From assembly GCA_019055375.1 (NCBI GenBank), contig JAHQIW010000441.1:1-64000 (forward strand): DNA of 64,000 bases, given 5' to 3'. A model generated the notes under the pieces. That model made no database searches. It saw nothing but the letters and a program-made list of their open reading frames with translations, and was not told the origin of the DNA. Shown here piece after piece: positions 2,347 through 58,089 of the stretch (position 1 is the first letter of the stretch; every line of letters begins with the position of its first letter). Made by a program: the position numbers and the translations under genes. This DNA is from Parelaphostrongylus tenuis. Its lineage: Eukaryota > Nematoda > Chromadorea > Rhabditida > Metastrongylidae.

Positions 2347-2628
2347 ACATGCTGTGAGGTAGAATATGTAATCATGCCACCCGTAATCCTGAGAAGAATG
2401 TGGAATTCAGAGTTTTTCGGTGGTGCACATGTAGCAGCCATGCGATAAGCGCGATTTGCACGTATCTACTTTATTTATATTCTGTGGAGTCCTGACCTTT
2501 AAGACTATGAAAAAGTCTAAATTTAGACTTACTTTTACATTCAAGCGTTTTATAAACCTCGCTTAAAACAATATATGATCTAACTATTATCTTGAGCCTT
2601 TGATGAGGTCTGTTATGGCACTTTCAAA

Positions 2629-2671
2629 GTGCTAGAAACGTGTTTCGGCCCTACAGCCTCATCAGTAGCAC
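2629..2671 (-). ncRNA. Hammerhead ribozyme motif (type I), left arm of foldback copy 1
   Basis: On the minus strand the order is stem I GUGCUA, core CUGAUGA, stem II GGCU-GUAG-GGCC, core GAAA, a short stem III ACAC/GUUU (one mismatched pair) ending in the cleavage triplet UUC, and stem I UAGCAC. Stem I is six perfect base pairs and both core boxes are canonical. Stem III has no loop, which in known minimal hammerheads favours dimeric folding (inference). Self-cleavage is not shown by sequence alone. Confidence 0.75.
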
Positions 2672-2958
2672 GGTGCCTTTCGGTCCAGCCAATTTATCTT
2701 TTGTAGGGGGACAAACCCCTGCATATAAAGGAATCGCCCACTGAATAATTAAATCACCGCATGTCAGGTGATGGAATCCCAAGGTATTGTAGTGACCATC
2801 AGTCGATCGCTCATGGCTGGCAAAATGAATCATAATGTCAGTCAATGTCAGTGTCGGGGATCTCATTACCTGACATGCGGTGGTTTGTTTAAACGACGTC
2901 GATTCCTTCGAATTTAGGGGAATCATCCTCGCAATGGATTGGCTAACTGAAAGGCACC

Positions 2959-3001
2959 GTGCTACTGATTAAAGAGCTGTGCTGAAACACGTGTCTATCA
3001 C
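2959..3001 (+). ncRNA. Degenerate hammerhead motif, right arm of foldback copy 1
   Basis: Plus-strand order GUGCUA, CUGAUUA, spacer, GAAA, CACGUGUC, UAUCAC. The GAAA, palindromic stem III, GUC triplet and most of stem I are kept, but the first core box has lost G8 (CUGAUUA) and stem II is weak. Likely inactive relative of the left-arm motif. Confidence 0.6.
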
Positions 3002-3084
3002 TGTAGAAAGGACATAATAGACCTCCTGATAGGCTCAAGATATGTTATCAGATCATAAATATAAACCCATTCGTCAGCAGAAGA

Positions 3085-3375: not shown

Positions 3376-3589
3376 CCAATTTCAGGACGAATACTAAGCC
3401 ATCGGCTACTTAGACATATTCATAGATAAGTTTTGAAACAAAAACATGCTTTTCTCAAAGTCTAAGTGTGCTGGCTAGGAGTAAACCCTCTAAGCTTTGA
3501 ATAAATGCTTTGATCAGCTAACGCCTGGATTTTCAATAGTAGTTTTAAACGGGAAAAATTGGCTTTCAACTAAATCTAACGACAACGAC

Positions 3590-4450
3590 GTTTATGAGGA
3601 ACAGATGGCTTTTGAATGCCCCATTTACGCTCAACGAAACGACAATCTCCGAATGCTGCAGTTACATCTAGGTCGTGAAATCAACATGATGAACGACCTA
3701 GCTCCAGAGTTGAGCAGGAGGAAACGAGCGGCTTGGGGAACGTTTAGGAGCATCGAAGATGTAGTGAAGAGGACAAAGAACATCCGACTCCGTGCCCACC
3801 TTTTCGACTCGACAATTATCCCTGCCCTAACGTATGCAGCAGAAACCTGGTCGCTACGTAAGCAGGATGAAAGATCACTTGGCGTTATCGAACGCGCAGT
3901 CGAAAGGTCGATGTTAGGAGTATTCCGTATCTCGCAAATGAGAGAAAGGATCCGAAGTTCCGACCTACGTCAACGGTCGAAAATCAGAGACGCCGTTCTA
4001 CACGCCAGGATATCGAAAATTAGGTGGGGCGGACACGTGATGCGCTTCAACGACAACCGATGGACGAGAGCCGTTACCGACTGGATTCCTCGGGACATCA
4101 AGCGCTCTACAGGAAGACCACTGACCCGTTGGTCCGATTTCTTCACGAAAGCGATAGAAGAAAGATATGATGCTCAGCGAATCCCTAGAGCGAGGAGGAC
4201 CCACTGGGCTACTCTTGCACGCGATAGGGAAAGATGGAAGTGTTGCTGGTACCCGCTCGAGTCACTCGACGATCAACGGGATGACAGGTGATACAGGTGA
4301 TGTTGTAGATATATTGAGATAGATAGGTTAGCACACAATCTAACGCCACTCATTACAAACTCTTTATTTGTAAATTTCTTATCATGTGATAAGTTGATAT
4401 AGTTATATTAGTGATATTAGTGATATAGTGATATAGTGATAAGTAGTGAT
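3590..4450 (+). mobile_element. RTE-type non-LTR retrotransposon, C-terminal ORF and 3' tail
   Basis: The frame ending at 4291 encodes the C-terminal part of an RTE-like reverse transcriptase protein. From about residue 70 it carries RRKRAAWGTFRS, PALTYAAETWSLRKQDERSL, RWGGHVMRFNDNRWTRA, GRPLTRWSDFF and [15 protein letters not shown], the conserved tail seen in nematode endonuclease-reverse transcriptase proteins. The catalytic RT palm and endonuclease domain are absent, so this is a 5'-truncated insertion, the usual outcome for non-LTR elements. After the stop comes a short 3' UTR and a tail of GTGATA-type tandem units (4390-4450), as is typical for RTE elements. Diverged relatives are at 8555, 20515/21646, 25125 and 50750. 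The frame is open and well preserved, so it is the youngest RTE piece here. Confidence 0.85.
4388..4450 (+). repeat. GTGATA/GTGATATTA simple tandem tail
   Basis: Imperfect tandem units of GTGATATA type directly after the RTE 3' UTR. RTE-clade elements commonly end in short tandem repeats in place of poly(A). Confidence 0.7.
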
Positions 4451-4756
4451 TGCAAGCCAAGCAAGTTTAGCTGCATTGGTGTTATGCTCTCTGACTCGAG
4501 AGAATATCGCGCTCCAATCGCGTCTCGAATGTCACAATCGTGGTCTCCTGCCCGTCCCGCCACTTGGTGCTACGTGGCCGTTGGCGAATCCTTGATGGGA
4601 TGGACGTGATCCTTTGTCTCGTGTCATTGGTCGGATCCGTCTTCACAGGTATGTCCTCTGCAAGAGTTCCTCCACAGCAGCCTGGGATAAACGCCGAACC
4701 AATTACACCTTTATTTTGAGTGTTTTTTCAAGACCACGCTCAAGTTTCAATAGATC
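4451..4756. other. Unannotated spacer
   Basis: Holds GC-richer sequence (4490-4610) without a recognisable gene or repeat. Confidence 0.35.
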
Positions 4757-4813
4757 CTTTCATTATTATTTGAGCCAACATGTTATGTGGTCTGGTAAAT
4801 GGGCTTTTGTACA

Positions 4814-4856
4814 GCCCGATACACGTGTTTCGGCCCTACAGACTCGTCAGTCGGGC
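4814..4856 (-). ncRNA. Hammerhead ribozyme motif (type I), left arm
   Basis: Minus-strand order: stem I GCCCGA, core CUGACGA, stem II GUCU-GUAG-GGCC (one mismatch), core GAAA, stem III ACAC/GUGU without a loop, cleavage triplet GUA, stem I UCGGGC. Stem I is six perfect pairs. All invariant core bases are present (N7 is C). Stem I differs from the copy at 2629 by paired changes, which argues for selection on structure in the source element. Confidence 0.75.
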
Positions 4857-4999
4857 AGATCTCGTCGTCTTTCAACCTTTTTAGTAGCTTACATTTTCAC
4901 TTGACATGCAGTGTGGATCGTTCGTCTTCGATACCTCCTGTAGGGAGAGCAGGCTCCCGTGAAGATTGGCTTATAAAAAAATTGAAAGACGCAGGGTCT

Positions 5000-5042
5000 G
5001 CCAGACTGACGAGACCGTGAGATCGAAACACGTGCATCGGGC
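5000..5042 (+). ncRNA. Degenerate hammerhead motif, right arm
   Basis: GCCAGA, CUGACGA, a 12-base stem II region, GAAA, CACGUGCA, UCGGGC. Core boxes are intact, but the cleavage triplet reads GCA in place of GUA/GUC, and stem I has one mismatch. Probably inactive. Confidence 0.6.
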
Positions 5043-5194
5043 TGTACAAGAGCCCATTTACCAGACCACATGACATGTTGGCTCAAGTTAGATCGAGTCG
5101 TCAACAGTTTTTTAATGACTAGCTTTCCTTACTAGCCGCGGCGCGATCGATCAATAGTAATTTCCTATCAGGAAGCTTGACAAATACGCAAAAA

Positions 5195-5270
5195 CTCGAC
5201 CTCAGGCGGGAGTCGAACCCGTATTTCACCCTTATCGGGGCGCGTGCTACCCTACTCTTTCTTCGACATG
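5195..5270 (-). repeat. Single tRNA-like arm
   Basis: On the minus strand this reads GGTAGCACGCGCCCCGATAA and, after the gap, CGGGTTCGACTCCCGCCTGA, i.e. A-box- and B-box-like blocks of the tRNA-like foldback family, without a detectable partner arm. Confidence 0.5.
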
Positions 5271-5412
5271 AACTGTCTAAGCTGTCAGCAACGAACCTTT
5301 GACAGGCGCAACGTTAGCCAGATAAAAACATTTCCACTTTATCAGCCTCGCACTACTCGCTCAATCAGCAAAGAAAATGTAAGCGACAATATTTATGTGA
5401 AATTCAAAGGTG

Positions 5413-5670
5413 TTGAGTGATATGCATAATCTTGAACGTCAGACGGGATTCGAGCCCGCACTTCACCCTTTCCAGGCTCGTGTACTATCCATTGCACTAC
5501 CGATACCTGTTTTGTCACCATTCTTGCTACGATAAAGGGCATCAATTTGTCAGCGTAGAGAGGATGGTTGGAAAACAGATGTCAGTGGTGCAATTGGTTA
5601 AGCACACAGAAAGGGTGAAATGCGGGTTCGAGTCCCGACTGACGTCAAAATTTTGCACATTACTCAGTAT
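5413..5670. repeat. tRNA-like foldback element, copy 3
   Basis: Left arm (minus) GACGGGATTCGAGCCCGCAC and right arm (plus) GCGGGTTCGAGTCCCGACTG are inverted tRNA-like T-arms. The ends are TGAGTGATATGCATAA and TTTTGCACATTACTCA. The right arm also has an A-box-like GTGCAATTGGTTAAGC. Confidence 0.65.
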
Positions 5671-6014
5671 CATTGGGTATAGCAGTAATGTCATGCTATC
5701 GCTAAAGAGGTCAATAAAGGAATTCTGGTTATAAAATGCCCCATATCACGCATTCAGTCCCTTATTGGGGACATAAAAAAGGCTGAATATATAAAAATGT
5801 CAGCGCAGATAAGCTCATTTTCTGTGAAATGGTGATGTTCGAGAAGCTTAAGCTAACATCGGATGGGATTAACTGAGTAGGGGTTGTTTAGATGGATTTG
5901 TATCAGAAAATGATCTCAGTCTACTTCATGTACCATGAATTTCTCGCTGGTGCCATAGAAAACCTTCGAAGGGCGATTAGAAAACCTTGATAATTAACAA
6001 GAATTCTTTTTTGA
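5671..6014. other. Unannotated spacer
   Basis: Nothing recognisable. Confidence 0.35.
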
Positions 6015-6056
6015 TAATGACATAACATGTTTTGAGCCCTTTCTGAGATCTGTTAG

Positions 6057-6107
6057 GTGCTAGCTAGACAGGCGTTTGTGTCGTCCCCCAGGGCTAGTCA
6101 GTAGCAC
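6057..6107 (-). ncRNA. Degenerate hammerhead motif, left arm of foldback copy 2
   Basis: Stem I GUGCUA/UAGCAC is perfect, but the cores read CUGACUA and GACA, both departing from consensus. Likely inactive. Confidence 0.45.
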
Positions 6108-6386
6108 AGTTATCTTCGGTTCAACCGATCCCTTGAAGCCATACTCCTCTATAAAGGAATCGGCGCCGTGTAAACCACTGCAAGTCAGGTGACAGAATCC
6201 CCGACATTGCAGTGTCCAGAAGTCGAGCTTGTGGCTGCTAAAATGGATTACACTTCTCCTTCGTTGAGTGAGGAATCACCGCAAGTTAGGTGGTAGAATC
6301 TCTTGACTTTCGGTGATTTATTATTCTGCGTCGATTCCTTTATAAAGGAGTATATCCTCAAGGAATCGAATGAACCGAAGGAGATT

Positions 6387-6433
6387 GTGCTACTGACGAG
6401 TCCTGGAGGACGACACAAACCCCTGTCTAGCAC
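6387..6433 (+). ncRNA. Hammerhead ribozyme motif with altered GAAA box, right arm of foldback copy 2
   Basis: GUGCUA, CUGACGA, stem II GUCC-UGGA-GGAC (four perfect pairs with a tetraloop), GACA, stem III ACA/UGU with a six-base loop, triplet GUC, UAGCAC. Stem I is six perfect pairs. The only core fault is A13 to C (GACA for GAAA), expected to cripple cleavage. Confidence 0.6.
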
Positions 6434-6577
6434 TTAGACAATGGCTTAAAACATGTTACATCATTACCAAACTGCTGTCGTTTTAAGCGAAGTATAAAAA
6501 GCAGTCGAATGAAGAGAATTCTTTTCATTTTACCACTTTTTCCAATGCAGAGTTAGGGTATCTACTATATGTCCAAG

Positions 6578-6793: not shown

Positions 6794-6978
6794 TGGAATG
6801 ATGTGCAAGACTTTCGAGTCAGCTAGGACTTGAATCAACATTTCACTCTATCCGTGTGGCGTAGAAAGAGTGGTGACAAAGTAGGCGTTGGTAGTCCAAC
6901 GGTTCGAGCACACGATCCGGATAGGGTGAAGTGAGGGTTCGAGTCCCACCTGACGCAAAAGTTTTGCACATCACATTG
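6794..6978. repeat. tRNA-like foldback element, copy 4
   Basis: Ends GGAATGATGTGCAAGACTTT and GTTTTGCACATCACATTG are inverted. The right arm contains GAGGGTTCGAGTCCCACCTG. Same design as 1197 and 5413. Confidence 0.65.
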
Positions 6979-10058: not shown

Positions 10059-10109
10059 TAGCCACTCGATAGCTTAAATCTCGAGAATGCTGAAGGTGTA
10101 CTTGATTCT

Positions 10110-10210
10110 TTCATTATTATTTGAGCCAACATGTCATGTGGTCTGGTAAAGGCTCTTGTACAGCCCGAGACACGTGTTTCGTCCTTACAGACTCATCAGC
10201 CGGGTGTACT
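10110..10210 (-). repeat. Solo left arm of the GCCCGA hammerhead foldback
   Basis: TTTCATTATTATTTGAGCCA through TGTCATGTGGTCTGG matches the left arm at 4757. No right arm follows. Confidence 0.65.
10163..10205 (-). ncRNA. Hammerhead ribozyme motif (type I), most canonical copy
   Basis: Minus-strand order: ACCCGG, CUGAUGA, stem II GUCU-GUAA-GGAC (four pairs), GAAA, stem III ACAC/GUGU with no loop, cleavage triplet GUC, then UCGGGC. Stem I pairs CCCGG with UCGGG and can extend past a bulged C through GUACA/UGUAC, giving about ten pairs. Every invariant core position is kept. It lies about 105 bases past the stop codon of the PA-domain gene, on the opposite strand. Confidence 0.8.
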
Positions 10211-10680: not shown

Positions 10681-10904
10681 GAAAGAAATACTCGTATGTA
10701 AAACATAATTCTGTTTGCTTTGTCACAGCATTGTAAAGAGGCCGGCTGGAAACAAAATGCACTATTGAAATTCTTGAGATTTATGGTATTGAATGACTAT
10801 CCTAATTCTGAAAAAAAGCAAGGGTTTTCTCGGAGGGCTGAAAATGGGTGCGGATAGGAGAAAAGTACCTAGATTTTCACGGCTTTCAGAGTATAGAGAA
10901 TTCA
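10681..10904. other. Unannotated spacer
   Basis: Nothing recognisable. Confidence 0.3.
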
Positions 10905-10963
10905 GAGCTCAATATGATAAGCACGTTTTGAGCCTTTTTGAGGTCTGATATGGCACTTATACA

Positions 10964-11009
10964 GATAGTAGACAGGCCTGTTTCGCTTTTTCAAGCTCGT
11001 CAGTAGTAC
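10964..11009 (-). ncRNA. Hammerhead ribozyme motif (type I), left arm of foldback copy 3
   Basis: Minus strand: GUACUA, CUGACGA, stem II GCUU-GAAA-AAGC (perfect four pairs with a GAAA loop), GAAA, stem III ACAGG/CCUGU (perfect five pairs, no loop), triplet GUC, UACUAU. Core is canonical. Stem I has one C-C mismatch. Stems II and III differ from the other copies by paired changes. Confidence 0.75.
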
Positions 11010-11087
11010 GGTGGTGCTTTTCGATACAGCCGATCCCGATGTAGAATGAATCGCCCCTGTGAGGGACCGGCTGAGCCCAAAGGCACC

Positions 11088-11133
11088 GTACTACTGAACG
11101 GGCCTGGAAAGGCGAAGCAGGCCTGTTTAGTAC
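11088..11133 (+). ncRNA. Degenerate hammerhead motif, right arm of foldback copy 3
   Basis: Stem I GUACUA/UAGUAC and stem III ACAGG/CCUGU-type sequence are preserved, but the core boxes read CUGAACG and GAAG. Likely inactive. Confidence 0.5.
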
Positions 11134-11570
11134 TGTATAAAAGCCATACAAGACCTCATAAAAGGCACAAAGCGTGTTATCATATAATCAGCTATCGTTT
11201 TTGAGCGTGGTCTATAAAAGCAGTCGAATTAAGAGGTCTCATTCAGTGCTTGATTCCAAATAAGATTTTGAATCCTAGATCTCATTTCCAAATGTGACTG
11301 CTTTTTTTTTTTGAATGACGAAGGATTTCTAGTATTTCTTTCCTACTAGGTACATGTGTACGCTCCCAAAGTCGTAATTTTATAATGAAATAATTCCTAA
11401 AAAGTTATCACTAAGTGTGGTAAGTTTAAAGTATCGTAAAAATACGCCTCAGATGTGTTCATACCTGACGATTCAATATTTTTGTCGTAGTAGTCCATGT
11501 CATTAACAAAAATCTTTTGCTCAGTCGCTCTTTTGTAGGTGGTGTGATGTAATAATGAATATTCGGCAAT

Positions 11571-17805: not shown

Positions 17806-17984
17806 TTAAATATCTCTGTTACAGATCACGACTGATAAGACGGAGTCGACTTGAAGGTCTTCAAGTTTATTGTGATCCTAACAAAGGTTCCTCTAAAAAT
17901 AGGTTGCGCGAACAAATTTTTCTCATATGTATACCGATTTCCGTTTTCGATTGATCTATATTCAATACACTTCAATCGACTATT

Positions 17985-18120
17985 TTCAGACATCGCCACC
18001 TCGCTTAAAAACTTATTATGATCTGATAGGCTGTTTTAAGTCTATAATAAGAACTAATAAAGGCATCTCTAGTGGTATGCGTATGATACGGCGTTCACGC
18101 ACGCTTCAGCAGTAGTATTA
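17985..18120 (-). repeat. Fragment of a hammerhead foldback, decayed motif
   Basis: The flank CACCTCGCTTAAAAAC and the segment GGCATCTCTAGTGGTATGCG match left arms at 58100 and 40870. The minus-strand core is ruined: CUGCUGA for CUGANGA and GUAU for GAAA. Confidence 0.45.
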
Positions 18121-18350
18121 GGTCTCCAACTAAGTTTCCAAACCTGATCCAAGAATCCAAAAATTTATTTTTTCCTGGTAATTGAAAGTATCAAATAACA
18201 TTAACTGAAATCGCTTCGGCAACAAATCAATTCCGCCCTCAAAAAACTCATTATTCTTCAATACAAACCACCCAGTCAATTCTCGATGCAAATGATTGAT
18301 GCAAATGAGTAATTTCTTCTGTTTATCCGTTCTGGGGTGTTATTGAAGGT

Positions 18351-18384
18351 GGCTAACGTTTCGGCGGGCGCTTTCTTCAGAACC
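18351..18384 (-). ncRNA. Minimal hammerhead motif 3' of the Penelope-like ORF
   Basis: Minus strand: stem I GGUU, CUGAAGA, an 11-base stem II region with GCG/CGC, GAAA, stem III reduced to AC/GU, triplet GUU, stem I AGCC. Core fits CUGANGA with N7 = A. It is on the same strand as, and about 170 bases downstream of, the Penelope-like ORF at 18553, which is where a terminal repeat is expected. Hammerhead motifs with very short stem III are known from Penelope-like elements. Confidence 0.6.
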
Positions 18385-18540
18385 TGAAAAGATCATACAG
18401 ACCCACAATCCACTAAGCCAAAACCATTATAACCCTAGCAGAAAACATCAGAAATGAATTTTGGATCGCTTAGTAAAAGCTTCATTTCGAAACAGCCACC
18501 ATTTTGATGTTTTGGGTCTATCAATTATTCACTGAAGACC

Positions 18541-19355
18541 AGCCGCTTAGGGTCAGTGCATCAGTGCGCTGTGCCTAACTCGGGCCGGAAAGATCAGCCT
18601 GAGGTATGGTTTGAGATCACGCGTAATTACGAGACACTCGTCTTTTCGGTTCATTTTTGAGCCTTTGCTATGTATCCAAAAGGCTTTTAAGGTTTTACGC
18701 GCAGATGTTTTTGATTCCTGTGCGAGGATCGAGAATTTGACGCCGAACATTACTCCTGCATGGTTTTGGTCCTTATGCGTTCCTAGTGGGGTTTCTGAAT
18801 CAGAGTTGCGTAACCCAACTAGGTGCTTCTTTACAGGAAGGAATATTGGTCTACCCGTTTCGCCAATGTACTCATCGCCGCTTGCTTCGCAGGAGATTAG
18901 GTAAATTATACCCGATCTCATACAGTCGCCGTCTCTGCCGTCCGGACAAACTTTGCAGTCATTGGTTTCGCAGAGACGGTCATATAGTCGGTTGCGGACT
19001 AATTGACGTTAGTGTTTTTGGGGGTATTTCAACTATTGCTACCTGATTATCCAAATCTGCTCTTTTTAGGCAGCGTTTAATAGCTGTGCTTACTTCGTTA
19101 GAGATAAAAGGCGGGAGAAAAGGAACATTATTTTCGCCAGACTTGTCGTATGGGAGCATAGAATTTCCTCTAAATCTAGCCTGAGAAGCTCCTACCGCAT
19201 CGTAGCCATTAGAGATGGCCATTTTTCGCGCCAATCTTAAGGATACTACATTGTGTTCTTTTCCTGTGCACACACTTGTCGCTGTTCGGATCATGTTCTT
19301 CAGAAGTCCATGTTTTATGTGTGAAGGATGAGCTGATAGGTGTTGAACCAAATAT
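18541..19355 (-). mobile_element. Penelope-like element, RT C-terminus plus GIY-YIG endonuclease, 5' truncated
   Basis: Minus-strand coding region in two frames. The upstream frame (19351-18980) has LSAHPSHIKHGLLKNMIRTA, SLRLARKMAISNGYDA and LPPFISNEVSTAIKRCL, typical of the region between RT and endonuclease in nematode Penelope-like elements. After a one-base frame change near 18993 the reading continues as LVRNRLYDRLCETNDCKVCP, then the GIY-YIG nuclease: GIIYLISC, then DEYIGETGRP, an H at the helix, TPLGTH and TSARKTLKAFW, ending at the stop near 18553. The catalytic RT domain is absent. Homology stops at about 19355, where a mariner relic begins, so the element is 5'-truncated. A second fragment lies at 62330. 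Confidence 0.85.
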
Positions 19356-19359
19356 TTTT

Positions 19360-24513: not shown

Positions 24514-27500
24514 ATGAGTCGGATGCGAACTCGAGGAAAAGAGGGGACCGATCCGGCGGCGTTGACCAGCCCATCGTCCACTCTTCCAGTCTCAGCAGCC
24601 CTGTCGAGTAATCTCAGCTTCACTCCGATGACGTCACCGAATAGAGAGAGGTGGGTGTTGTTTTGGGGGGATCGTTTACTTTTTTGATTCTATTGTGGGG
24701 TGATCGCTGTTGAGCTGATGATTTCAGCCTACCTTGTAAACTGATCTACGTCCATCTGCCGTTCGATCAACATTCCCGACTCGAAGTCCGGGCGGGTCAG
24801 ACGGCTCGGGATGCGATTTCGAAGCTGCTGAAGAAACGGAACATCACACCTCAGCTGTGTCATGTGAATGTCTCTGCCGATCCGAGGAGTGAACAGATCG
24901 ATCTCATGGTATGTTCAGTGCACTGCCTACAATTTCTTTCTGACTGAATTTCCCGAGACCGACTATCTATTAACCTCGGCTTGCTCAAGCTAGACACGAG
25001 GTGTTATATTACTCCGTATAAACAGCTGACGTCTCGACAGTTCGCCTTCTTCGGAGCCTGGAAAGGTCGAGTTGTCTGCAATCCAATCAGTCAGACATCT
25101 CCATTAAAAATCATCAGCCCTAGGTTTTAGTCGCCTGTATCACCTGTCACCTGCCGTCCCGTTGATCGTCGAGTGACTCGAGCGGGTACCAGCAACTCTT
25201 CCATTTTTCCCTATCGCGCGCAAGAGTAGCCCAGTGGGGTCCTCCTCGCTCTAGGGATTCGCTGAGCATCATGTCTTTCTTCTATCGGTTTCGTGAAGAA
25301 ATCGGACCAATCGGGTCGGTGGTCTTCCTTTAGAGCGCTTGACGTCCCGAGGAATCCAGTCGATAACGGCTCTCGTCCGTCGCATCAAGCACAAAATCAG
25401 CTCTCAGTATATTGCTTTTTGAATGTGTTTCACTGAATTATTCATGTGGAGATCACCGGAAGGAGATCACATAGGCTCATAATGCACCCCACCCTTCGAA
25501 GCAAGTCTTGTCATTTTCGCTTATATCACGAGTGATAACGAGGCATTCTTCCAAGTATAAACCCAAAGGAACTCGTGATATGAGCAGTATATGAGACTTG
25601 TTTTGAAGGGTAATGTGCATTATGAGCCTATGTGATCTACTTCCGGTGGTCTCCACTTGAATTAAGCCGTAAAACACATATAAAAAAGCGGTGACAATGT
25701 TGAGAGTTGATTTTGTGCTTGATGCGATTGAAATATGGGTATGGTGATTTCTTCTAAAGGAGTAATGGAGACGTTTTGACTGATTGGATCACAGACAATT
25801 TGATCATTTCAATCTCCAAAGAAGGCGAACTGCCGAAATGTCAGCTGTTGAATACCGAATAGTTTTACATCTCGAGTCTGTTTAAGAAGAAAACGAGGAA
25901 TAATGACTGTTCCTCCGATGTTTCTGAGCCGTACCTACGGCCAGGCCTTTTTCGGAGAGGATGTCCCTCCTTCGAAAAGCCCACTCGAGCACGTCACCAC
26001 CATGGCTGGGAATGATTGCTCACATACTCCGAAACGTCACTTTCCTGGTTCATCGGGATTCGATTCACATTTTGTTAGTGTTCAGCAAATGATAACATAT
26101 AGCAAGGCCATGCACTCCATCTGTAAAATGTTACACGTTTGGAATAATCTAGTTTAACATGCATTTCAAGTCTGCACAAGGTAGTTGAGCACTGTGTGTG
26201 GCTGATACTTGGCCCCCAGTGCCTAATAACGATAACAAAGATATGAGCTAAAGAGTTTGAGTATATGTATCATGCAGTCGACATCACCAGCTACTGTTGG
26301 AAGTCACTAAAGGCGGTCTAACCTGTAATTCCTAACTTTGCTGGCTTACTAGATTCTGTGATAAGTTGGTGCCGTTCCGATTTTATAATATGATTGCTTG
26401 CAGTGAAATTGCATGATTTTGGTATCGTTCAATTGCACATTTTCTTGCGAACATTGTGGTATATAACTTGACTGTACTTACTTTAAGATAGAGGTGTCTT
26501 AAGAACAAATTCGCTTGCTACTCATGCGCGAATGGCTCGTATGGAAAAATACTAGTGAAGCGGCGCGCAAAATTGATAAAACTTGGGGCGATTCTACGGT
26601 GTTAGAAAGGACCGCTTCCGGGCTTTGGTCAATCCTTTGGCACCCGTTTCGACTTCTTCCAGACCTTATCGAGTTTATGCAAGATGTGGCGATGGTTTTG
26701 AAGCAACACTCGGACTTTTCGACTAGCATTCGACATATTATTGAGTGATTCTATTGACCATTTCAAGGACAGTTTGACGATCAACTTCCTATGGACGGCC
26801 CGAACGCGGCTAGTCTTCCTGACTGTACTCTGCAATTTTGAATTTTGCGAACCACTTCCTAGCCGTTTTTTTCTGTAACCGTATCATCCCCCCGAGCCCC
26901 ATTAATCCTTGCATACCGCCTCGCTGCCATTTTTGCCCTACGCGCCATACGTGCATAAGTAGTGAGCGGATGTGTTCCCAGGACAGCTCCATCTTGAAGC
27001 AAGTATATACAGGTTATTTACCAAAATGACCGCAAGTAAGTGCGCAGTGAGCGTTACCAAAATGAAGCAATTTTTCTGCAAAAATCATATCAAAAGACTG
27101 AAACGGCACGAACTTTCTACAGAATCTTCTAACTTATCAAAAGGAAAAGTGTTTGAGTTGAAATCTGCCTATAGTCACATTATTCTTGGTCTACCACATT
27201 TCCTATCTGACTATTTGCGAGATAGCCTTTTTTGATTTTTTTCAAAAATAAAAATGGGATTTGGTGCTTTCACTACAGTTGCCGTTTTCCTTGGATCGGA
27301 CCGCCACGGAGCGATGTTCTTTATCGAATAATACATTTGCAAAAGTTTGTTTAGTGATATTCAACCTCTTATGGCGACAGAGTTCTACAAAATTTGTCAC
27401 TATCAAACAAGTAGTAAATTTTTCTTGAGAGTTGCGGCAGTTTTGTAAGCGGTTAGATCAGTGCGAAAAGGCATGTATCGTTTTTGGTACACACCGTAGC

Positions 27501-30500: not shown

Positions 30501-33500
30501 GAGAAGACCAACTAACCGTCTCCATCCCCGTGCAGACACCTCACCGTTTGGTTCTAATTCACCATCAAGTAAGCATCTATTCTCAAGTGTGCTACGCTAT
30601 CCATCTTGTGGATGAAGGGATATTTTGGTACATCGCGAACATCTGACTCAATTTTCTAGGCACCTGTTCATCTCCTCCTGCTACTCAGCTCAATGCTGCT
30701 CAGCTTTTGCCACCTGCTCTTCCCCTCACCCCACCACAAAGTGCTCCTCCGCAAAAGGTATAGAAAATCTCAAGTGGTTTGCACGTATGGGCGATTCTTT
30801 CTGAGAGGTTCATGTTTTTCTATTTCTCAACTTTATAGTTTTCTCCTGGATTCTTTCGTGGTCGAAGCCGATCTCCAGCTGACCGCGTAGAACCACAGCG
30901 AACACGAGCAGTTGTCAACAAATTCGCACATGAGGACTGGGAGGTGCCGGCCTGTTGCTGTCACGATATTCGAAATTTTGTGTATTGTTGATTTCTTAGA
31001 TCGATGAGAAACAAATCACGTTACAATGCAAGGTTGGCTCTGGCTCGTTTGGAACAGTGTATCGTGGAGAATACTTTGGTCTTGTTGCTGTGAAGAAATT
31101 GAATGTGGGGGAGCCCACTCTGCAACAACTTCAAGCTTTTAAAAATGAGGTACTTCCTACTGAGAACATTTACTTTCTTTCCCTTCATATTTTTTCATGT
31201 AGATTCTGTTTTCTTCGGAGAGAAGGTGGCATAGATAGCGCTCTGACCCTTGCTGCTGAGAATTGTTTTTTTGTTATATGGGCCAAGGTTAAGCCTAATA
31301 TAGGATAAAGCTTTTGGCGTTAATCAATTTGTGGAGGATGCGCCATGCATTCGACCTTGCGAAGCATCGTTGGAGATGAGTGAATGCATAAATGCAAAAT
31401 AAATGAATCACTCACGATGGCCCACCGATGTATCTAAGTCAGTGCTGCTATCCTGATAGGCGAGTCTGGTATCAATTCACTGATCTCAGGCGATGGAAAG
31501 GCCTGGTGAGCCTTTGAGAGCGGTATCGAAGCACCCACCACGTTGTGTGTCGCTGGGCCACGTCTAATCCACTACGCTACATAAGCCCAGACCAGGTTTA
31601 CGCATCAAAATCTTCGGTGTACTCGTCTTATTTGGCCATGGTGGACTCCTTCCGCGTCCTCTGCGTGATCTGAGGTCTTGTTGTCAGACAGCACACCCTC
31701 ACTTTGTCATGTGTTCTGAGTAGGGGCCCTCTGGTTGAAGAATGCTTGAATGACAGCTTTTATAGTAGCTGAATCGTAGGTCTTTGAAGAAGTGAACATA
31801 GGAATAGCATTGTCCGCCCTCACAGCTCACGCTACTTCAGTAATTTCTTCAATAAAGTGAAAATCATCTGATAGATGGGATCTGTTTCCAAACTTTGACT
31901 GTCATATTGTTACCGTTTCCTCATTGTATCACTGTGTCACCGAGTGCTCCGAATGTGATCAGCTGACTGATAGGAATGATCTGTGCTTCATGTGTTTACT
32001 TTCATATTTCAACATCACTACATCACAATGTGTTCATCATGTTTATTTATTAATTTGCTTATGTACGCAACCCGTCATCACAGTTTTTGTTCTACTGATC
32101 CCATTACTTCTAGAATTCGATTCGTTTGTTTCGCCTCCTTATTGAATGACGTAGAATACTGGTCGAGCATGTCTCCTTGCAATCTCGGGGATTATGTGGC
32201 TGTGGCGTTCCATAGGCGTCCATTGCTGACTGCCGTAGAGAATTGGGTATCGCAACTCACTCGGCCTGACGGCGCATCACACCCGATCGTGCTCATCGGC
32301 GCCAGAATTTCGATTGTAAATGAGTTGGTAATGAAGAAAATCGGCTCTTATAGAGAGCTCTGATCTCATGAATTCTTCGATGTTTTTTCTTAATTGTTTT
32401 TTTCAAGTGAGAATATACGCGAGCACGCTTAGTCTTAGGCTTAAAACATTGGTAGGACCAGAGCTCTCCACTAGCGTCAGGATACCCTCCAGAGAACCGT
32501 AAAGTATGAGTCACGTTTTCCAGTTACTGTGAGTCATGTACTCCAATCAGTGCAAGTCGATGCTTATGGAAGCGGTCAAGCGGACCTTGTTACTTAATCC
32601 ACAACGTAATAAGAGCAATCAAATCTTGCGTAACTGACTTAATAGCAAGGTGATCGAGAAATGTCAACGGATACACGGCATGCAAGTAAGGGACTTCCTC
32701 AAACATGCGATGTTCAGTGAAAGTCAGTGGTAAACTGTCGATATCAAGAAGCATTATGCAGAGACCTAGCTACATGGAGTGGAATTTTTCTCATTCGAGC
32801 TTTTTTTACGATTCATTTCTGCAATGCATGGAAGGATTCTCTTGAAGCGACGTTATTTCTCAGTGAAAGCCGAGCTTTTGCATGATGATAGCGCTACTTA
32901 CGTTATTCGTGATCGTATCAGTTCACCAGGACTCGTATTGCAACATTTCCTCGAAGTTTAATTGAAGTCGGAGGAGAATTTATCGGAACGAGAATTCATT
33001 TATGTAGCTGTCATTCTTATTGAGCTTCTGATTCCAGTAATATAGCCGTTGTGGTCTGTGTCGTTCTATCAGAAAGTCTTCTTTGTGAACGATGAATTAT
33101 CGAATGTAAAGACTTGGGCAAGTGTTCATAAAGCATCTTCTAACTGGAAAGTCTTTTAGGTAGCTGTACTGAAGAAAACTCGTCATTTGAATGTACTTCT
33201 CTTTATGGGTTGGGTACGGGAGCCATCGCTTGCAATTGTAACTCAGTGGTGTGAAGGCAGTAGTTTATACAAACACATTCACGTAGTCGGTGAGTCTTCT
33301 CTCGATCTTTGTTTACTTTATAATGTTATGTATGAATTAATGACGACCAGTCCACTATGGGAGTCTAAAGTTTTGTCAAGAAGACTCACACCGCTGGTGG
33401 GGAACCTTTCGAGCCATCACACTGCACGTTCTAATAGATTTCCGATCCATGCTTTCATGGAATCGAGTTTTGTATTCGCTGCAATATACATAAGTTTAAC

Positions 33501-36500
33501 CATTTTTCATGCATTTAAGTTCTTTCTTTACTGTCGTTCAAAGCACCTTCTTGCGGTTATTTTGATAAATAACATTCATACATTTGTATCAAGATGGATT
33601 TGTCCCAAGAGCTGTAACCATTGTTGATGCTACAGGAGTATTGTTGCGTGCCAAAACACCACTTGAACGCAGGTGATACTCGTGTAGCATCAACAGTCGT
33701 TTTTGCTTTCGGGACAATTCCATTTGTAACAAATGTGCAAGTGTTATATATCAACATAACCGCAAAAAAATTGCTCTTAACGATAGTAGAAACAAAAATT
33801 TGAATAACCAACAAAAACGAAAAAGTTCGAAAAATTCCTGCTATCCCAATAGTCGAAGGCACGCATCTCGATGATGACTGAAACACCGGCTCAACTCTCT
33901 CCCGAGGTCCAATTCTGCATATATTTCAGCATTCTGAAATCTGTAATTGTAACATCATAACATCGAATCCAGTATCCTGTTATCAAAGCGGCGAAACAAA
34001 TGATTCTTGTACATTTTTTCTGTGCTCTTCAACAATAAACTGTTTACTTCCTTAGGTCAAATGTGAAAGCATTGATTTCAGAACCGCATGTGGAGTTTGA
34101 AATGAGCACCGTTCTCGATATTTTCAAGCAGATCACTTTGGGAATGAACTATCTGCACTCGAAAAGTATTATTCATAGGTAACTGCCGTTTGCCTAGAAT
34201 TTAGCTGTTTAATTAGAAATTGTGAAGGAAGGGAGGAGTGGGAGGCTGTGATCAAGGCTTGTGGTCAATTGCGCAGGTTATGATCGACGCGGAGTTCTCT
34301 AACCCAATACTCTCTACCAATAAATGAGTGCCCTACGGAACGCCCCACAGCGTGGTTATCCTCGAGATTAATAGATGTGCTCAGCCAGTATCTTACGGCG
34401 TTCATGAAAAAGACAGTTCCTTAATGAGGTGGTGAACGCGAGGCGACGTATTGAATGCTAAAGTACTGGGACCCACCCGCATAGAAAAAAAAATAGTGAT
34501 ACGGGCAGATAAAGTGATAAAAATTATTATTAGCCGTTGGTCGTGTAACCTTTGAAAACGTGTTTGGAGTGGAGTGTATTAGTATGCTTCTATAACCATT
34601 TCGAGAACGTGGACCCACCTTTGCATCTCTAACCCCAGCGTGGGAACGCGTCGAATGTAATTATCTCAACTCACTTGTATTATTGTTGCTATCTTCCTAC
34701 GTAATATTATGTGTGAATATATTATGTTGTTATAATTAGGGAAATAGCAACAATGATACAATCAAAATTTTACAATAATACATTCAATGCGTTCTCGCAC
34801 TGTGGGTTAGAGATGCAGAAGAGGTGGGTCCACGGTCCCGAATGGGATGAATTTTGCTATCAATTCCTGTTCAATCCTTTCGATATGCCGGCCATATACG
34901 GCTGACTGGCTGTTCGAACGGTTACAAAGTGCGGGTGACTTATTAAAAAATACTTCTACAGACTCAGGATGAAATTCTGTCGTCTAATAACGATACAGTC
35001 TCATTACAAACATAAATTCACCAAATAAATACCAAATTTTTTGTTGGAGGTCGCGCCAATGTTCGTGCGTATTTCTGCACAGCGCGGCTTCGCGTGCATC
35101 GTTTTCGCTACATGTCGTGACGAAGGGGTTGATCTTCTGAAATTATTGACTAACCTCCCTACCATGTCATGCAGCGACGCAACTATGAATCTTACTTGTA
35201 TATGAAAGGCTTGCATTACTTGGCGATGATTTTTCTTGTAAGCACTAAAAATTGGAGCTTCTTACCTTTTTTGTATATGTGCAAGGGCTCGATACTATCA
35301 TTCACTTTTTTTCTCTGTAACTTGCTCTCATAATGCACTACTTATTTTATTTTGTACTGGTGGAGATTTTGGCGGCTTTCGGTGCATACTTCATTTTTTC
35401 TTTTGTAAACATATCGTGATGTTCTTGAGCATCATGCAGTTTTTATTGTTGCAGGGATTTGAAAACAACAACATTTTTCTTATGGATGACATGAGTACTG
35501 TGAAGATTGGAGATTTCGGTCTCGCAACCAGTAAAAACACGATGGAGCGGTGGTCAGCAAAGTCAGCAACCAACAGGCAGCATTCTTTGGATGGTACTGT
35601 TGCTCACCTTCTTGTTCAGCTCTCATCTACTAAGGTGCTGTTTGATTTCTCTATAAGCCAAAACTTTAGGCGCCAGAAGTGATTCGCATGCAAGACTCTA
35701 ATCCCTATACGACACTCTCCGACGTCTACTCATTTGGTATTGTAATGTACGAAGTGCTTTCAAGTTCGTTACCGTATTCGAACATAAATAACAGAGATCA
35801 GATTTTGTTCATGGTGAGATTTACCTATGTTTTTATTCCCATAACAGTACTTTCAACAGGTGTTGGCTAATATAAGAACGTCAGGCGTAAACGGGTCAAA
35901 GAATAAAGAAGAAAAGTAAAGAACGTGTCACTTGCAAGGTTTAGCTCTGTGACCACTTTGTCAAACTTGTCAAGAGCACTGAATCGGCAAAGAACAAAGT
36001 TACAATATTTTGCATGTAATGACGAAACTTTGTCTATCAGCAGGAGCTGCGGGAATTCTTGTAATATGTGCACACGTCTAAATCGCATCAGTACATATAT
36101 ACGTGCATACGTGTATATGTGTACGTATGTGCATGTATATGCGCGAAGATGCGCATGTATACGTGTGTATGTATGTGCATGTACAAATGTATATGTGCAT
36201 GTATGCGTGTGTATGTGCGTACGTATACCTATATATCCATGTACATCATGTCACCGTGTCTTTAGCAAAACATCAGCTAACTGCAAACCGTGATCTTCTT
36301 CTGACTACTACAGGACAATAAAGAGTTCTTTTCGAAAATAAAGTTACTGTGGAAATCGCCGAAATTTGAGCTATCAAAAACTTATTAAACGTCCAGCGGA
36401 AAAGCTAACTTCTAAGGGAAATGCTTGAATGTAAAAGATCTTCTGGTTTTACTGTTAAAACGCATAAACGGAGGCCATTTGGAGAATGAAGGTATATGGA

Positions 36501-40165: not shown

Positions 40166-40829
40166 GAATTCTTGTATAGTCGTGTTGAAGACATTTAGCC
40201 TTTTTTCAGGTTGTGTGATGTTCACCGTTGCTGAATGCAATGTGTTGTTGGGTCTATCCAGTGTCTTTGATCCGTTTGTGTAGTGATTCTGTGATACTCT
40301 TTTTATAAATGGGTACATAATTGTTATTTCTCTCCATCTGAAACCTTGTAAAAATCTTCTTCCACTATTGTACCGGTACAATCAGATGGACTGTAATCCT
40401 TCGTGTGAATGCATAATTAGAAAAACTTGTCATTCACGCACTAAGCGATTATCTGAGATCTATTCACCACCATTATCAGAGTATTTGACGAGGTCTAATT
40501 CGAGTTTTTCCAGTACCTTTCCAGAGACGTTGACCACTTTCCATATTGCCAAGTTGTTACTGAAAGTCTGTATTTCTCCAGTTTATGCAAAAAGCCTTGT
40601 TCTATAGGATCTTCATTGGTGTAGTACGTGATGATTACAGTGCTATATTCTTTGCAATTGTGATTGATGTGAACCCATTGGAAGTATCTGTACTATCTAA
40701 TCTTCAGCATTCCTCTTATCGGGTAAAAGTAAATTGCTTATCTAATTCTTTTTCTTTTCGCTCGAAACTATAGTGGATGGTGCAACAATACCTTTCAATC
40801 GATTTATCTTTTGAGCCTTAAAAACTCCA
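40166..40829. other. Unannotated intergenic stretch
   Basis: Nothing recognised. Confidence 0.3.
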
Positions 40830-40882
40830 TTTACTCTGATCGAATGTTTTAAGGTTTTTAGAAGTTTGGTATGACATCTCTA

Positions 40883-40929
40883 GTGGTATACGTACGTTTC
40901 GGCGTTCTCGCCCGCTTCATCAGTATCAC
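40883..40929 (-). ncRNA. Hammerhead ribozyme motif (type I), left arm of foldback copy 4
   Basis: Minus strand: GUGAUA, CUGAUGA, stem II GCG/CGC with an eight-base loop, GAAA, stem III ACGU/ACGU without a loop, triplet GUA, UACCAC. Both core boxes canonical. Stem I has one mismatch. Confidence 0.7.
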
Positions 40930-41266
40930 ATGCCATTTGGCTCACCAATATTATTAGGAATCGTGGCCGAAGAAGTGTCAATCCATGTCAGTTGAGATGG
41001 TCACTTGATGTTGCGTTCTTTCGGAGTGATTGAGGGTCGTCTAGAATGGCTTACGACTGTTATGGAGCATATGCAACGATACCTTTCAATCGACTTTTGA
41101 GGGGCTTGGTTTAGAAATTGAACATAGTGTGATAGAATGTTCCAACATCCGTAAGCTATGCAATCAACAATCAATCACTCTGGAAAAATACAACATTTAG
41201 GAATTATTTCACTCTTGTAGTGATAATTCTTCGGCAACGATTCTTAGCAATAGTAGTGGCAAGCCG

Positions 41267-41313
41267 AAGGCACTGATGAGGCGTGGGCGAACGCCGAAGC
41301 GTACGTATAGCAC
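41267..41313 (+). ncRNA. Partly degenerate hammerhead motif, right arm of foldback copy 4
   Basis: CUGAUGA, stem II GGCG/CGCC (perfect four pairs), GAAG, ACGU-type stem III, triplet GUA, UAGCAC. A15.1 is changed to G and the 5' strand of stem I is not conserved. Confidence 0.5.
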
Positions 41314-41375
41314 TGGAGATGCCATACCAGACCTCTGAAAGGCTTGAATCATTCTATCAGACTATATAGTGGATG

Positions 41376-41904: not shown

Positions 41905-42262
41905 AACCCTTTTGGGACCGTGGACTTATCTCTTCCGCATCTCTAACTCCCTGTTTGGCAACGCTGGCCGGTCCGCCCCACCTCCCCTTCATCTCTAACT
42001 CCCGATGTGGGAGCGCGTTTGATGTATTACTGTAACATTCCAGTTGTGTTATTGTCGTTATTTTCCTATTTATAACAAGATAATATAATTATATATAACA
42101 TGGGGAAATAATAATAGTACAATTGAAGTAATACAATAACACTTTCAATGCGTTCCCACACTGGGAGTTAGAGATGCAGAGAAAGTTGAGCAGAAATCCC
42201 ACCGTTACCACGCTGGGATTAGGCGACGCAGAGGAGGTGAGTCCACGGTCCCGAAAGGGTTA
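41905..42262. repeat. Foldback repeat family F, copy 3
   Basis: Ends AACCCTTTTGGGACCGTGGA and GTCCACGGTCCCGAAAGGGT are almost perfect inverts. Inner CATCTCTAACTCCCGATGTG and ACTGGGAGTTAGAGATGCAG, and GGGGAAATAATAATAGTACA against TTGTCGTTATTTTCC. Longest copy. Confidence 0.75.
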
Positions 42263-43292: not shown

Positions 43293-46200
43293 ATGGAAAA
43301 AGAAGAAGTGGATGAGGCGTCGAGTTTGTGTTCAGCCATTCAACAGATGGCACAGTCTTCTAGTCAAATCACGCTCGACGATATGGGTCACGTGCTGCGC
43401 TTGGTGAAGGTTTGTTTGTAACGATCTAAACCATAAGCAGTTATCCGTACATTGTAATGATTTGGTTATTATGCCGTGAGCTGTGGTCAGAATTGCCTTA
43501 CGACACACACACATACGTGGATCATAGCTCGACCTGCGCTCAAGGCTTAACAGGCCATCCATATCTCTGGACTGGCGAATGGGTACCGGACCTGTGTGGA
43601 AGTTTAGCAGCACTGACGCGATACATCGGCAGGCCGCCACGAGTTTTTGTCAAGGCCAGATATGCATACAGTCACATCTAACTGTGCTTGACGAAGTCGA
43701 ATGGATCACGTAACCTTTAGGGTTAAGTCGACGTCGGGGGCTTCATCCCTCATCCTTCTTATGTAATCATATTCATGTATCGGGTGCATCGTAGCCGAGT
43801 GGTTGTGATGCTGGTCACGCCGCTCGTGTGGCGGGACCCCATTTTCTAACACCGTCCGGCACGCCATAACAGACGTTCTAAGAACGGCACACTAGGCTAT
43901 TCTTGAGATTGCAAGGAGCGCACTCACCCCGTATTCATAACGCTCAAGAAGAAGACGAAAAAAAACGATTTGAATGCTGGAAGTACTTGAATTCAAACAG
44001 TGAAGAAAAACGCCTATGAAGACGGATCAAAAAGTACTAAAGGATTGATGTATACAGTGCGTATGTATGCTTATATGCACTTGGTAAATGATCGTTGATG
44101 AATTCTACAGTCGGAAATCGATAGGGAAGCGTGTGGAAGTCCAGGTCTCCTGGATTTAGTAACTATTTGTCTTTTTTTTTATTTTAGCACTTTATTTGAT
44201 CCGTCATCACAGTGTTTTTTCTTTCACTATGCAAATTCTAGTACTTCTAGCATTCTCACTCGTACTTCTAGCGAATTCCAGTACTTCTTCAGTTCTTATT
44301 TATCTTCTTGTTGAACGACGTAGAATATTGATTGAGCGAGTCTCTGTGTAATCTCGAGGATAGCCTGACTGTGGCGTTCCATAGAGCGCTTTGTTTCATA
44401 CCTGAGAAGGTTGGGGAATGGAGCTCGGCTCCAGTCGCGACGAGCTAACACCACTAGACCACGGCGCCCCACAACTAGTAACTATTTGTGTACATAAAGA
44501 AATTGTGATAAGTGGTGAGACAGTATGCTTGACTTCCGTAGATAGCTGACAGGCTATCTGGGTACTCCATGTCTTCAAAAATGAAACGAAATCTTATGAT
44601 CCTTATTGTTCCTTGCTGAGCGGATACGAGGTCTAACATCGTGATTTATTCAGTATTATACAAGCAACAGTCATGACTTTACATTTCATGGAAGCATAAT
44701 CTAAGTGTGTGAGCAAACGCATGTGATGTAGTAGTTGGAGGTGCTCTGCGACAGGCACACGTGATCAGTGGTTCCATTCCGGATTAAAACTCAACACGCT
44801 TTCCATCACTGCGGGGTCATCGTTAGTAGCAGACTTGTGTGGAAGGATAAGCACCACTGACTCGATACATCGGTGAGCCACTATGATCTTTGGAAAGCCT
44901 GATATGCAGTCAGTAAACTCCAGCGGTTCTCGGTGAAGTCGAATGTATGACGTATCCCTCATGATCAACGCCAAGAGCTTCACCCTTTTATCCTTCAAGT
45001 ACGTCAACTTTTTCTTCTGTTGATTAATACCTTCATTTAGCTCATTCATCGCTTGTTTATCGTCGACCTCGAGCGTGCCATGGAACAGGGAATGGATGCT
45101 TTGCTTTGGACAACGATAAAGCAGCTGATAGATCGTATACGAGAGGAACACGGTGATGGTCCAAATGCTGTGAGTTATAGAATATTTAGCATTCAAATTA
45201 TTAAAAATTCTATGGGAAATCTATAGGAGTAGATTCAATAGAGATCCTAACAAGACGTTTTCACGTAGTATGTGAAGCTATTGTCAGCTTATATGCTTCT
45301 ACATTCACTATCGAACAAATAGTGATAGTAGAGCGACCATCCCGGTAGTGTAGTGGTAGCACGCGCCTTCCGTAGAGGTGAAACCCGGGTTCGATTACTG
45401 CCGGCGGTCGAGAGTTCTTTAGACCACTCGGCACCATTAAGTTATTCATTGCAACAAGAATCACTTTTTATTTAACCGCTCTTTGCCGTGGTATAATATT
45501 ACATATATACCCAATGATGTTGTATGATGTGCAAAACTTTGACGTCAGACAGGAATTGAACCCGCATTTCACCCTTCCCGAAGGCACGTGCTAATCAATT
45601 GCACTATCGACGCGTTTTGCAGATTAACTAAAAGAGCAATTCTTGTCGATTACATATGTCCGATATCTGTTAGCGTAACTGGGATTACTGCTGTCATCGG
45701 TTTACTAGGCTTAACATTTGATTGTTGGTTGCTGACAGGTCGATATGTTGTGGCGTAGTAAGAGTGGTGGTTAAGCAGGAGTGAATAGTGTAATTGGTTA
45801 ACAGGCGCCCCGAAAAGGGTGAAATGTGGGTTCGATTCCCGTCTGACGTCAACGTTTTGCACACTGCTCAACATCATTGGGACTATCTCATCACAACATC
45901 ATCATTAATGTTTTTGTGCATCTCCATTTTTCCGAATCAAGCAGACCCAAATCAATGTGTAATGAAAAGTTGTAGCAGATGAGAAGAATACTGAAGTGTA
46001 TTTTTTTTTTCAGAATTTCGAAAACGCGATTAGTCTATGTATTTCGTGGCTGTGCGATCTGTCACTGAGTGTCTATTCGAAGTATCAACTACCTCCCATT
46101 GATATTCCTTCGTTTGTCTCTCTGTCAACGGCTCTTCGTGTTGAGCAGACGACTTGCGTACCTCCAGCCATCGGGAACTCTTTTCTAGCGTTTCTCTGTC

Positions 46201-52380: not shown

Positions 52381-52384
52381 AGCT

Positions 52385-52470
52385 TCAGTTAATGTTCAGG
52401 GAGGTCTGTTATGTCATTTCTAGTGCTAGACGTACGTTTCGGCTTTTTCGCAATCTCACCAGTATTTTTC
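52385..52470 (-). repeat. Solo decayed hammerhead-foldback left arm
   Basis: GGAGGTCTGTTATGTCATTT then TAGTGCTAGACGTACGTTTC match left arms of the foldback family. Minus-strand core reads CUGGUGA (A6 changed) with GAAA, ACGU stem III and GUC kept. Confidence 0.5.
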
Positions 52471-58085: not shown

Positions 58086-58089
58086 ACTT

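Follow-up and report, generated by a model that had tools for sequence, protein, structure and literature searches.

Head-to-head copies of a retrozyme-like hammerhead repeat in a nematode genome pair one short with one long outer end and are likely products of Penelope-type insertion

The analysis of six palindromic elements with hammerhead motifs in a 64,000-nt stretch of Parelaphostrongylus tenuis DNA (the window), together with related copies elsewhere in the assembly, suggests that these palindromes are head-to-head insertions of a retrozyme-like repeat. They were likely produced by the reverse transcriptase-endonuclease of a Penelope-like element (PLE) priming from both ends of a cut target, with one of two RNA sites used on each side; we place the probability of this reading at roughly 70%. 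The architecture itself is already known for PLEs. What is new is a retrozyme-like family that displays it and a count of insertions in which every pair with readable ends has one end of each kind. The genome represents a large natural set of small insertions, and questions about PLE integration and about the mobiliser of retrozymes become countable in it.

A layout of inverted arms had been claimed from the sequence alone for all six elements, and inverted arms were recovered in all six places. The arms are 2588-2684/2946-3042 in element 1 (77% complementary), 4770-4859/4997-5086 in element 2 (89%), 6063-6173/6321-6431 in element 3 (83%), 10912-10964/11133-11185 in element 4 (72%), 40829-40924/41272-41367 in element 5 (81%) and 58149-58189/58400-58440 in element 6 (80%). 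The full elements extend past the arms first described. Unit alignment, with ends read by eye, placed element 1 at 2530-3060, as a left segment 2530-2834 on the minus strand and a right segment 2841-3060 on the plus strand of a repeat unit of about 301 nt, the left end being long and the right end short. The other head-to-head pairs are element 2 (family B, 4701-5090, ends approximate, long/short), element 3 (family C, 6011-6514), element 4 (10904-11245, ends approximate, short/long), element 5 (family D, 40780-41364) and element 6 (58086-58453, long/short). Solo arms, all on the minus strand, are present at 10085-10210 (family B), at 17970-18125 (family D, just downstream of a PLE fragment) and at 52380-52480 (family D). 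In total the window contains 15 arms and six outward pairs. With lengths of 340-585 nt, the six elements are too short for an ORF with reverse transcriptase and GIY-YIG domains and are not autonomous PLEs.

The host is probably a nematode, as had been supposed: the best named protein matches of the window are to P. tenuis and most others are to strongylid nematodes. Over 79% of its length, the reverse transcriptase fragment at 3494-4288 shares 94% identity with a protein of P. tenuis, which makes a metastrongyloid host likely. This fragment and a second 3′ remnant at 25147-25382, both of which we take to be of RTE type, are 93-97% alike and lie in opposite orientation. Kinase-like exon pieces (33160-35679; weak Pfam matches, Raf kinase-like by eye) were also seen, and the window probably contains introns of a host gene. 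Repeats resembling tRNA, some in inverted pairs, occur at 5435-5506, 5579-5646, 6885-6957, 45541-45613, 48841-48912 and other places and are probably a tRNA-derived SINE family. A different inverted-repeat family, in which no hammerhead motifs were seen, is located at 41905-42261 (149-nt arms, 59-nt centre), with a partial direct copy at 34749-34819.

Outward-facing hammerheads had also been claimed for both arms, and this claim held, several of the right-arm motifs being decayed. A core-motif scan found minus-strand cores at 2665, 4850, 6101, 11003 and 40923, that is in five of the six left arms, and one more in the solo arm at 10199. The same scan detected plus-strand cores in two right arms (5006 and 6393), and the motifs at 2965, 11094 and 41273 are mutated yet recognisable in sequence. 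In element 1 the left arm contains a predicted type I hammerhead at 2629-2671 (minus strand; stem I 6/6, stem II 3/3, stem III 1/2 paired) and the right arm a decayed motif at 2959-3001 (plus strand). Element 2 carries a predicted hammerhead at 4814-4856 (minus strand; core scan and stem check) and a motif with T>C at the foot of stem III at 5000-5042 (plus strand). Both motifs of element 3, at 6061-6107 (minus strand, predicted inactive) and 6387-6433 (plus strand; sequence and core scan), have GACA for GAAA, so the 6101/6393 pair is probably inactive. Element 4 has a predicted hammerhead at 10965-11009 (minus strand), with the stem III palindrome ACAGGCCTGT, and a decayed motif at 11088-11137 (plus strand, by sequence). 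In element 5 a predicted hammerhead at 40883-40929 (minus strand; stem III palindrome ACGTACGT) is accompanied by a motif at 41267-41313 (plus strand, by sequence) with GAAG for GAAA. The left-arm core of element 6 has a C>A change and its right arm lacks the length for a motif, in agreement with the earlier statement that the motif is lost there.

In 332,839 bases, made up of the window plus 59 retrieved loci (39 of these chosen for their similarity to element 1), 42 cores passed with all three stems, as compared with 3-5 in five Markov-chain controls. A genome-wide search for the arms had been suggested; it was run with the exact hammerhead core, and the pattern CTGATGAG-N8-12-CGAAACACGTGTC was found 2,099 times (1,038 + 1,061) in the 481.5-Mb assembly, and its reversed control not once. 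Rfam at its own cut-offs reported no hammerhead in the window. At a looser limit it gave Hammerhead_1 at 10163-10205 in the family B solo copy (29.7 bits, E 0.0029, cut-off 34) and two Hammerhead_3 matches in the window that are at chance level (E 5 and 8.2). Two copies, at 34.9 bits, passed the Hammerhead_1 cut-off in the 14 of 20 arbitrary genomic stretches that were submitted.

The stem sequences vary among families while pairing is kept: among motifs selected on pairing, stem I is GTGCTA/TAGCAC, GCCCGA/TCGGGC or GGGTCA/TGGCCC, and stem III is one of the palindromes ACACGTGT, ACAGGCCTGT, ACGTACGT and ACACCGGTGT. When 38 motifs were selected on the core only, 75% of their stem I cells were paired; shuffling the partners lowered this to 61% (maximum 70%). 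Most units have a stem III string of 8-12 nt, mostly palindromic, and this is not the minimal hammerhead of PLEs. In its palindromic stem III with a tetraloop the present motif is similar to the hammerheads of other animal retrozymes (passages of PMC7229834) and to those that act as dimers (passages of PMC3088659). One more hammerhead family was noticed, in which GGAGG/CCTCC closes stem II and ACACCGGTGT forms stem III. It is outward-facing at L051 8418-8863, occurs also at L058 4357 and 6245, and has weaker relatives in L063 and L065.

The consensus that the sequence-only reading had proposed to build for the arms was obtained as a 301-nt unit from 39 loci fetched by similarity, and it identified the arms as the repeat's own unit. 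Judged by sequence, the arms are a non-coding repeat unit of about 300 nt that occurs also in direct tandems, like metazoan retrozymes. Matching stretches in the 39 loci are 73-96% identical to the majority sequence of the unit, mostly in the eighties, which indicates that the family is old. The unit was present in both orientations at 32 of the 39 loci and in one orientation at seven, L042 with its direct tandem of 1.5 units being one of these. Where both orientations are present, unit segments of opposite orientation meet with their 5′ sides inside. The inner junctions vary from copy to copy, and the inner ends are scattered round the unit. The ribozyme cut site is crossed by 74 of 81 segments of at least 60 nt, and 28 of the 81 are one full lap or longer. 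As most segments run across the cut site, and a third of them extend for at least one lap, we infer a circular or head-to-tail multimeric template. The ribozyme cut was also considered as the 5′ end of the template and was rejected, only one of 42 inner ends being within 5 nt of the cut site.

In family A, two arms from the same element resemble each other no better than arms taken from separate elements do (0.770 and 0.757, respectively, for arms on opposite strands), so that a common RNA template for both arms is unsupported in this family. The nearest neighbour of an arm was in its own element for three of 59 family A arms, and private mutations common to both arms of an element were not found in this family.

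The strongest regularity was observed at the outer ends. These fall into two classes, short ends at u97-124 and long ends at u143-169 of the unit, with means of u106.8 (sd 5.8) and u150.7 (sd 4.2) in 19 of 21 simple pairs, i.e. about 44 nt apart; the remaining two simple pairs have an end outside both classes. All 29 of the 39 loci with both ends in a class have one short and one long end. The ten unclassed loci have no opposite arm on the left (five), none on the right (two) or an end outside both classes (three). Common flanks join six of these 29 loci into two groups, L031/L032/L041/L045 and L034/L044, so that 25 independent insertions remain. Among 13 outward places examined in arbitrary 10-kb stretches, two were unreadable (L050, whose right arm is cut short, and L051, which belongs to another family) and all 11 readable ones showed one end of each kind, the left end of L057 1401 being ambiguous. 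The same was true for all six elements of the window; these 17 pairs were read by eye. Overall, the tail of about 44 nt was present on exactly one end in 46 of 46 read pairs (29 + 11 + 6). The predicted circular fold of the unit contains a stem-loop with GACCTC/GAGGTC as its closing stem, and the short site lies close to its apex. By eye, the family B counterpart of this stem is GACCAC/GTGGTC, a compensatory difference; no covariation in this stem-loop was found within family A copies.

Because a palindromic query had been used to select the 39 loci, that set is biased, and orientation was counted in three other samples. Taken in contig order, the first 100 exact cores gave 22 pairs of neighbours no more than 700 nt apart, of which 15 are outward, none is inward and seven are on the same strand. 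Same-strand neighbours are spaced 319-323 nt apart and outward ones 106 to 540 nt, and one inward pair, about 3 kb apart, is found within 5 kb. Of the 78 clusters formed by these cores, 60 have one exact core only, so many copies stand alone or beside a partner whose core is mutated. A second sample was composed of twenty arbitrary 10-kb stretches from contigs known to hold a copy, where 50 arms were found at E 1e-3. Within 400 nt, same-family neighbours were outward in seven cases, inward in none and on the same strand in six, and different-family neighbours in five, two and three cases, respectively. For same-family neighbours in these 200 kb and the window together, the counts are 13 outward, 0 inward and 6 same-strand.

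Target-site duplications had been named as something to look for, and candidates were found for a part of the elements. Nine of 29 elements have a direct repeat scoring at least 7 at their ends, a score reached by 1.6% of controls in which left and right flanks were mismatched; in the other 20 the score is below 7, and duplications are absent or decayed. Clear examples are the 11-bp repeats AGAATTCTTTT of element 3 (6000-6010 and 6515-6525) and TATAGTGGATG of element 5 (40769-40779 and 41365-41375), both likely target-site duplications, as well as AATTTGGTATT of L052 and TATCGAACTGACTG of L056. The flanking repeats are of 7-14 bp among the clear cases, not of one length, and examples of 8-14 bp occur among the copies with ends read by eye. 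As the direct repeats enclose the whole pair, each clear-case pair would have entered as one insertion.

PLEs of the same genome could provide the enzyme. The window contains a 5′-truncated copy at 18352-19357 (minus strand), with the endonuclease part and the 3′ region, which is a candidate for the kind of helper required. It has no Pfam match of its own and was recognised by similarity to the copy in L058 (58% identity over 67 residues and 57% over 84). The GIY-YIG match of the L058 copy is just under the Pfam cut-off (19 versus 22.6 bits) and a related P. tenuis protein exceeds it (24.6 bits); Pfam returned nothing for the PLE frames of the window or for the endonuclease frame of L068. In L068 an RVT_1 match (34.0 bits, cut-off 29.6) is located upstream of the endonuclease part, in separate frames. 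A genome-wide search produced 18,875 candidates for the PLE endonuclease; 150 matches among them were scored, the longest open frame reaching 840 aa. The exact minimal PLE-type hammerhead (CTGAAGA...CGAAACGT) is present in PLE copies at L058 4628 and at 38330 and 18380 of the window, and is changed in others.

Head-to-head PLE copies have a similar asymmetry. The PLE 3′ ends at 24987-25892 and the copy at 62076-62902, with the endonuclease part in its right arm, both show by eye a tail on the left end only, and with L058 4530-5995 an extension of about 35 nt is seen at one end only in three of three such copies. Among 21 pairs of PLE endonuclease matches within 6 kb, 17 are outward, one is inward and three are on the same strand, a count that is confounded and is not relied on. 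One of the 21 pairs belongs to a PLE at L068 31-4001 (C14:115000-119000), which lies at the centre of a palindrome (99.4%) that extends into the flanking DNA to either side and may be an assembly fold-back or an inverted duplication; because the flanks are included, some of the 17 outward pairs may have the same origin. The tail of the unit could not be matched to the PLE tail: for five of six PLE ends the score was reached by 121 to 1,783 of 2,000 shuffles, and for the sixth (34 of 2,000) the match to the unit falls outside the tail. Of three unit-derived motif forms, chosen after inspecting both unit and PLE and reached by at most one of 2,000 shuffles, two were found in 3/4 long PLE ends and one in 1/4, with none in the three short PLE ends. 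At L058 4260-6386, the head-to-head PLE pair 4530-5995 appears to lie inside a retrozyme-like element of another family, near the tail boundary of its host element, as if start-site regions attract insertions.

It had been foreseen that the arms could turn out to be ordinary Penelope terminal repeats in tail-to-tail copies. The insertion architecture is indeed that described for Penelope in passages of PMC3846280; the copies are head-to-head, not tail-to-tail, and the arms consist of the repeat's own unit. The arms were matched to no stretch of the PLE gene copies. We also considered the arm at 17970-18125 as a pseudo-LTR of the PLE at 18352-19357, which it adjoins downstream, and rejected this, as the conserved 3′ part of the PLE ends before the arm.

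These observations could be explained by the following scheme. A PLE protein would act in trans on the unit RNA, which would be a circular or head-to-tail multimeric ribozyme RNA, its ribozymes being predicted to cut as dimers via the palindromic stem III. Each end of the cut DNA would prime on the sense RNA at one of two sites about 44 nt apart, and antisense cDNA would run inward, so that each outer end would mark a start site and the 5′ sides would come together at the centre. The two priming events would be part of one insertion, and the inner 5′ ends would be joined by repair. According to passages of a 2024 in vitro study (PMC11167929), both strands of the target are cut and extended by the PLE protein of a lizard. 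Reverse transcription in that study begins within the RNA, at two neighbouring sites, the segment separating them corresponds to the genomic tail, and the later steps of integration were left open. Inverted pseudo-LTRs with a 31-bp tail on one of them, target-site duplications of 8-10 bp and a predominance of head-to-head copies are described in sections of an earlier paper from 2013 (PMC3846280). Parts of PMC8969392 treat inverted pseudo-LTRs and short 3′ extensions as peculiarities of PLEs and suggest that metazoan retrozymes may rely on PLEs. A two-ended model for head-to-head copies is not stated in the portions of PMC11167929, PMC3846280 and PMC8969392 on which we draw.

The rule of one short and one long end favours coupled two-ended priming and ties the retrozyme-like elements to integration of the PLE type. 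A wider proposition, to which we give even odds, is that retrozymes are the SINEs of PLEs and that PLE integration is itself two-ended: one ribonucleoprotein would copy ribozyme RNA from both ends of the target simultaneously, always using the inner site at one DNA end and the outer site at the other, with the tail marking which end is which and the palindrome recording the reaction.

The published explanation of head-to-head Penelope copies is a different one, self-priming, in which the 3′ end of antisense RNA folds back and primes itself (PMC3846280, in the part consulted as a source here). Applied to our elements, this would keep a PLE-type insertion and change only the origin of the inverted join. 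The unit RNA is strongly self-paired, with a predicted circular fold of -109.8 against -74.6 kcal/mol (sd 4.8), which speaks in its favour. However, self-priming predicts equal ends, short/short or long/long, and none was seen in the 46 read pairs; moreover, the implied fold-back loop ranges from 21 to 299 nt (median 135, 19 pairs), which is wide for a hairpin primer. We regard this explanation as unlikely.

Twin priming is known LINE behaviour, in which the second cDNA starts at varied internal sites. An RTE-type LINE of the same genome could thus have copied the unit RNA and inverted its 5′ part, and an RTE-like reverse transcriptase remnant is present at 3494-4288. Such an origin is very improbable, as both outer ends of our elements are at two fixed sites, in contrast to varied internal starts, and the PLE copies of this genome have the same layout. 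The sequence-only reading had favoured a foldback or MITE-like family, i.e. a DNA transposon with the ribozyme motif inside terminal inverted repeats, and the inverted arms, short length and high copy number would suit it. We reject it as highly improbable, because the termini differ by about 44 nt between the two ends (about u107 versus u151), the inner junction is variable among copies, direct tandem copies occur and the direct-repeat flanks of 7-14 bp have no single length. Assembly fold-backs, of which the L068 palindrome with its flanks may be at least one PLE example, or two independent insertions side by side are scarcely credible, since the window arms are only 72-89% complementary and hence old, the direct repeats flank whole pairs in clear cases, and independent insertions would give inward and outward neighbours equally, against 0 and 15 within 700 nt.

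With head-to-head insertion by a PLE enzyme as the preferred reading, the source of new RNA can be considered. That one motif would be masked by its antisense copy in a long hairpin had been suggested earlier and is plausible: the RNA of element 2 (4757-5100) folds at -209 kcal/mol, compared with -94 for shuffles. When an inverted copy is transcribed as one RNA, the motif is probably buried in the hairpin, and such copies probably yield no unit circle unless one arm has two motifs. Therefore tandem copies would supply new RNA.

The hammerhead satellites of schistosomes and newts resemble the present repeat in having a type I hammerhead with a weak palindromic stem III; they are tandem, whereas our elements are dispersed head-to-head pairs. 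The nearest likeness in the unit itself is with the non-LTR retrozymes of metazoans, which, in the passages of PMC7229834 and PMC7761336 used for comparison, are non-coding units of about 300 nt with a type I hammerhead and a small stem III with a palindromic loop, occur in direct tandems, have target-site duplications longer than 4 bp and coexist with PLEs, which both papers name as candidate movers. The definition of such a retrozyme, a unit of about 150-400 bp in direct tandems, agrees with a 301-nt unit, with seven of 22 neighbour pairs in direct orientation (spacing 319-323 nt) and with the canonical type I hammerhead predicted in the unit by core scans and Rfam. Retrozymes of this kind are also expressed as self-cleaved circular RNA, on which the 74 of 81 segments that span the cut site and the 28 of 81 of at least one lap bear indirectly. 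The published definition has no inverted arrangement, whereas 15 of the 22 neighbour pairs are inverted here, so that outward head-to-head neighbours are more frequent than direct ones (15 versus 7). Neither 'inverted' nor 'nematod-' appears in the main text of PMC7229834, and among titles and the starts of abstracts in the open-licence literature we found no report of retrozymes or hammerheads in nematodes.

The arrangement of the units is that of PLEs with a GIY-YIG endonuclease. In sections of PMC3846280, PMC11167929 and PMC8969392 these are described with head-to-head inverted terminal units, an optional tail of 30-40 bp on one of the inverted units (about 44 nt here), target-site duplications of about 8-10 bp and a hammerhead upstream of two reverse transcription start sites. 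A closely comparable case is that of pseudo-LTR-flanked inserts of Adineta vaga, moved in trans by Penelope, which, as presented in part of PMC3846280, are non-PLE sequences with direct and inverted pseudo-LTRs and a target-site duplication. Those are rare captures of host genes, whereas the family described here is dispersed and has a ribozyme unit of its own. It differs from PLEs in that its elements are too short for a PLE gene, such genes being located elsewhere in the genome, in that its hammerhead has a palindromic stem III where the PLE form is minimal, and in that the rule of one short and one long end has been counted here over many insertions.
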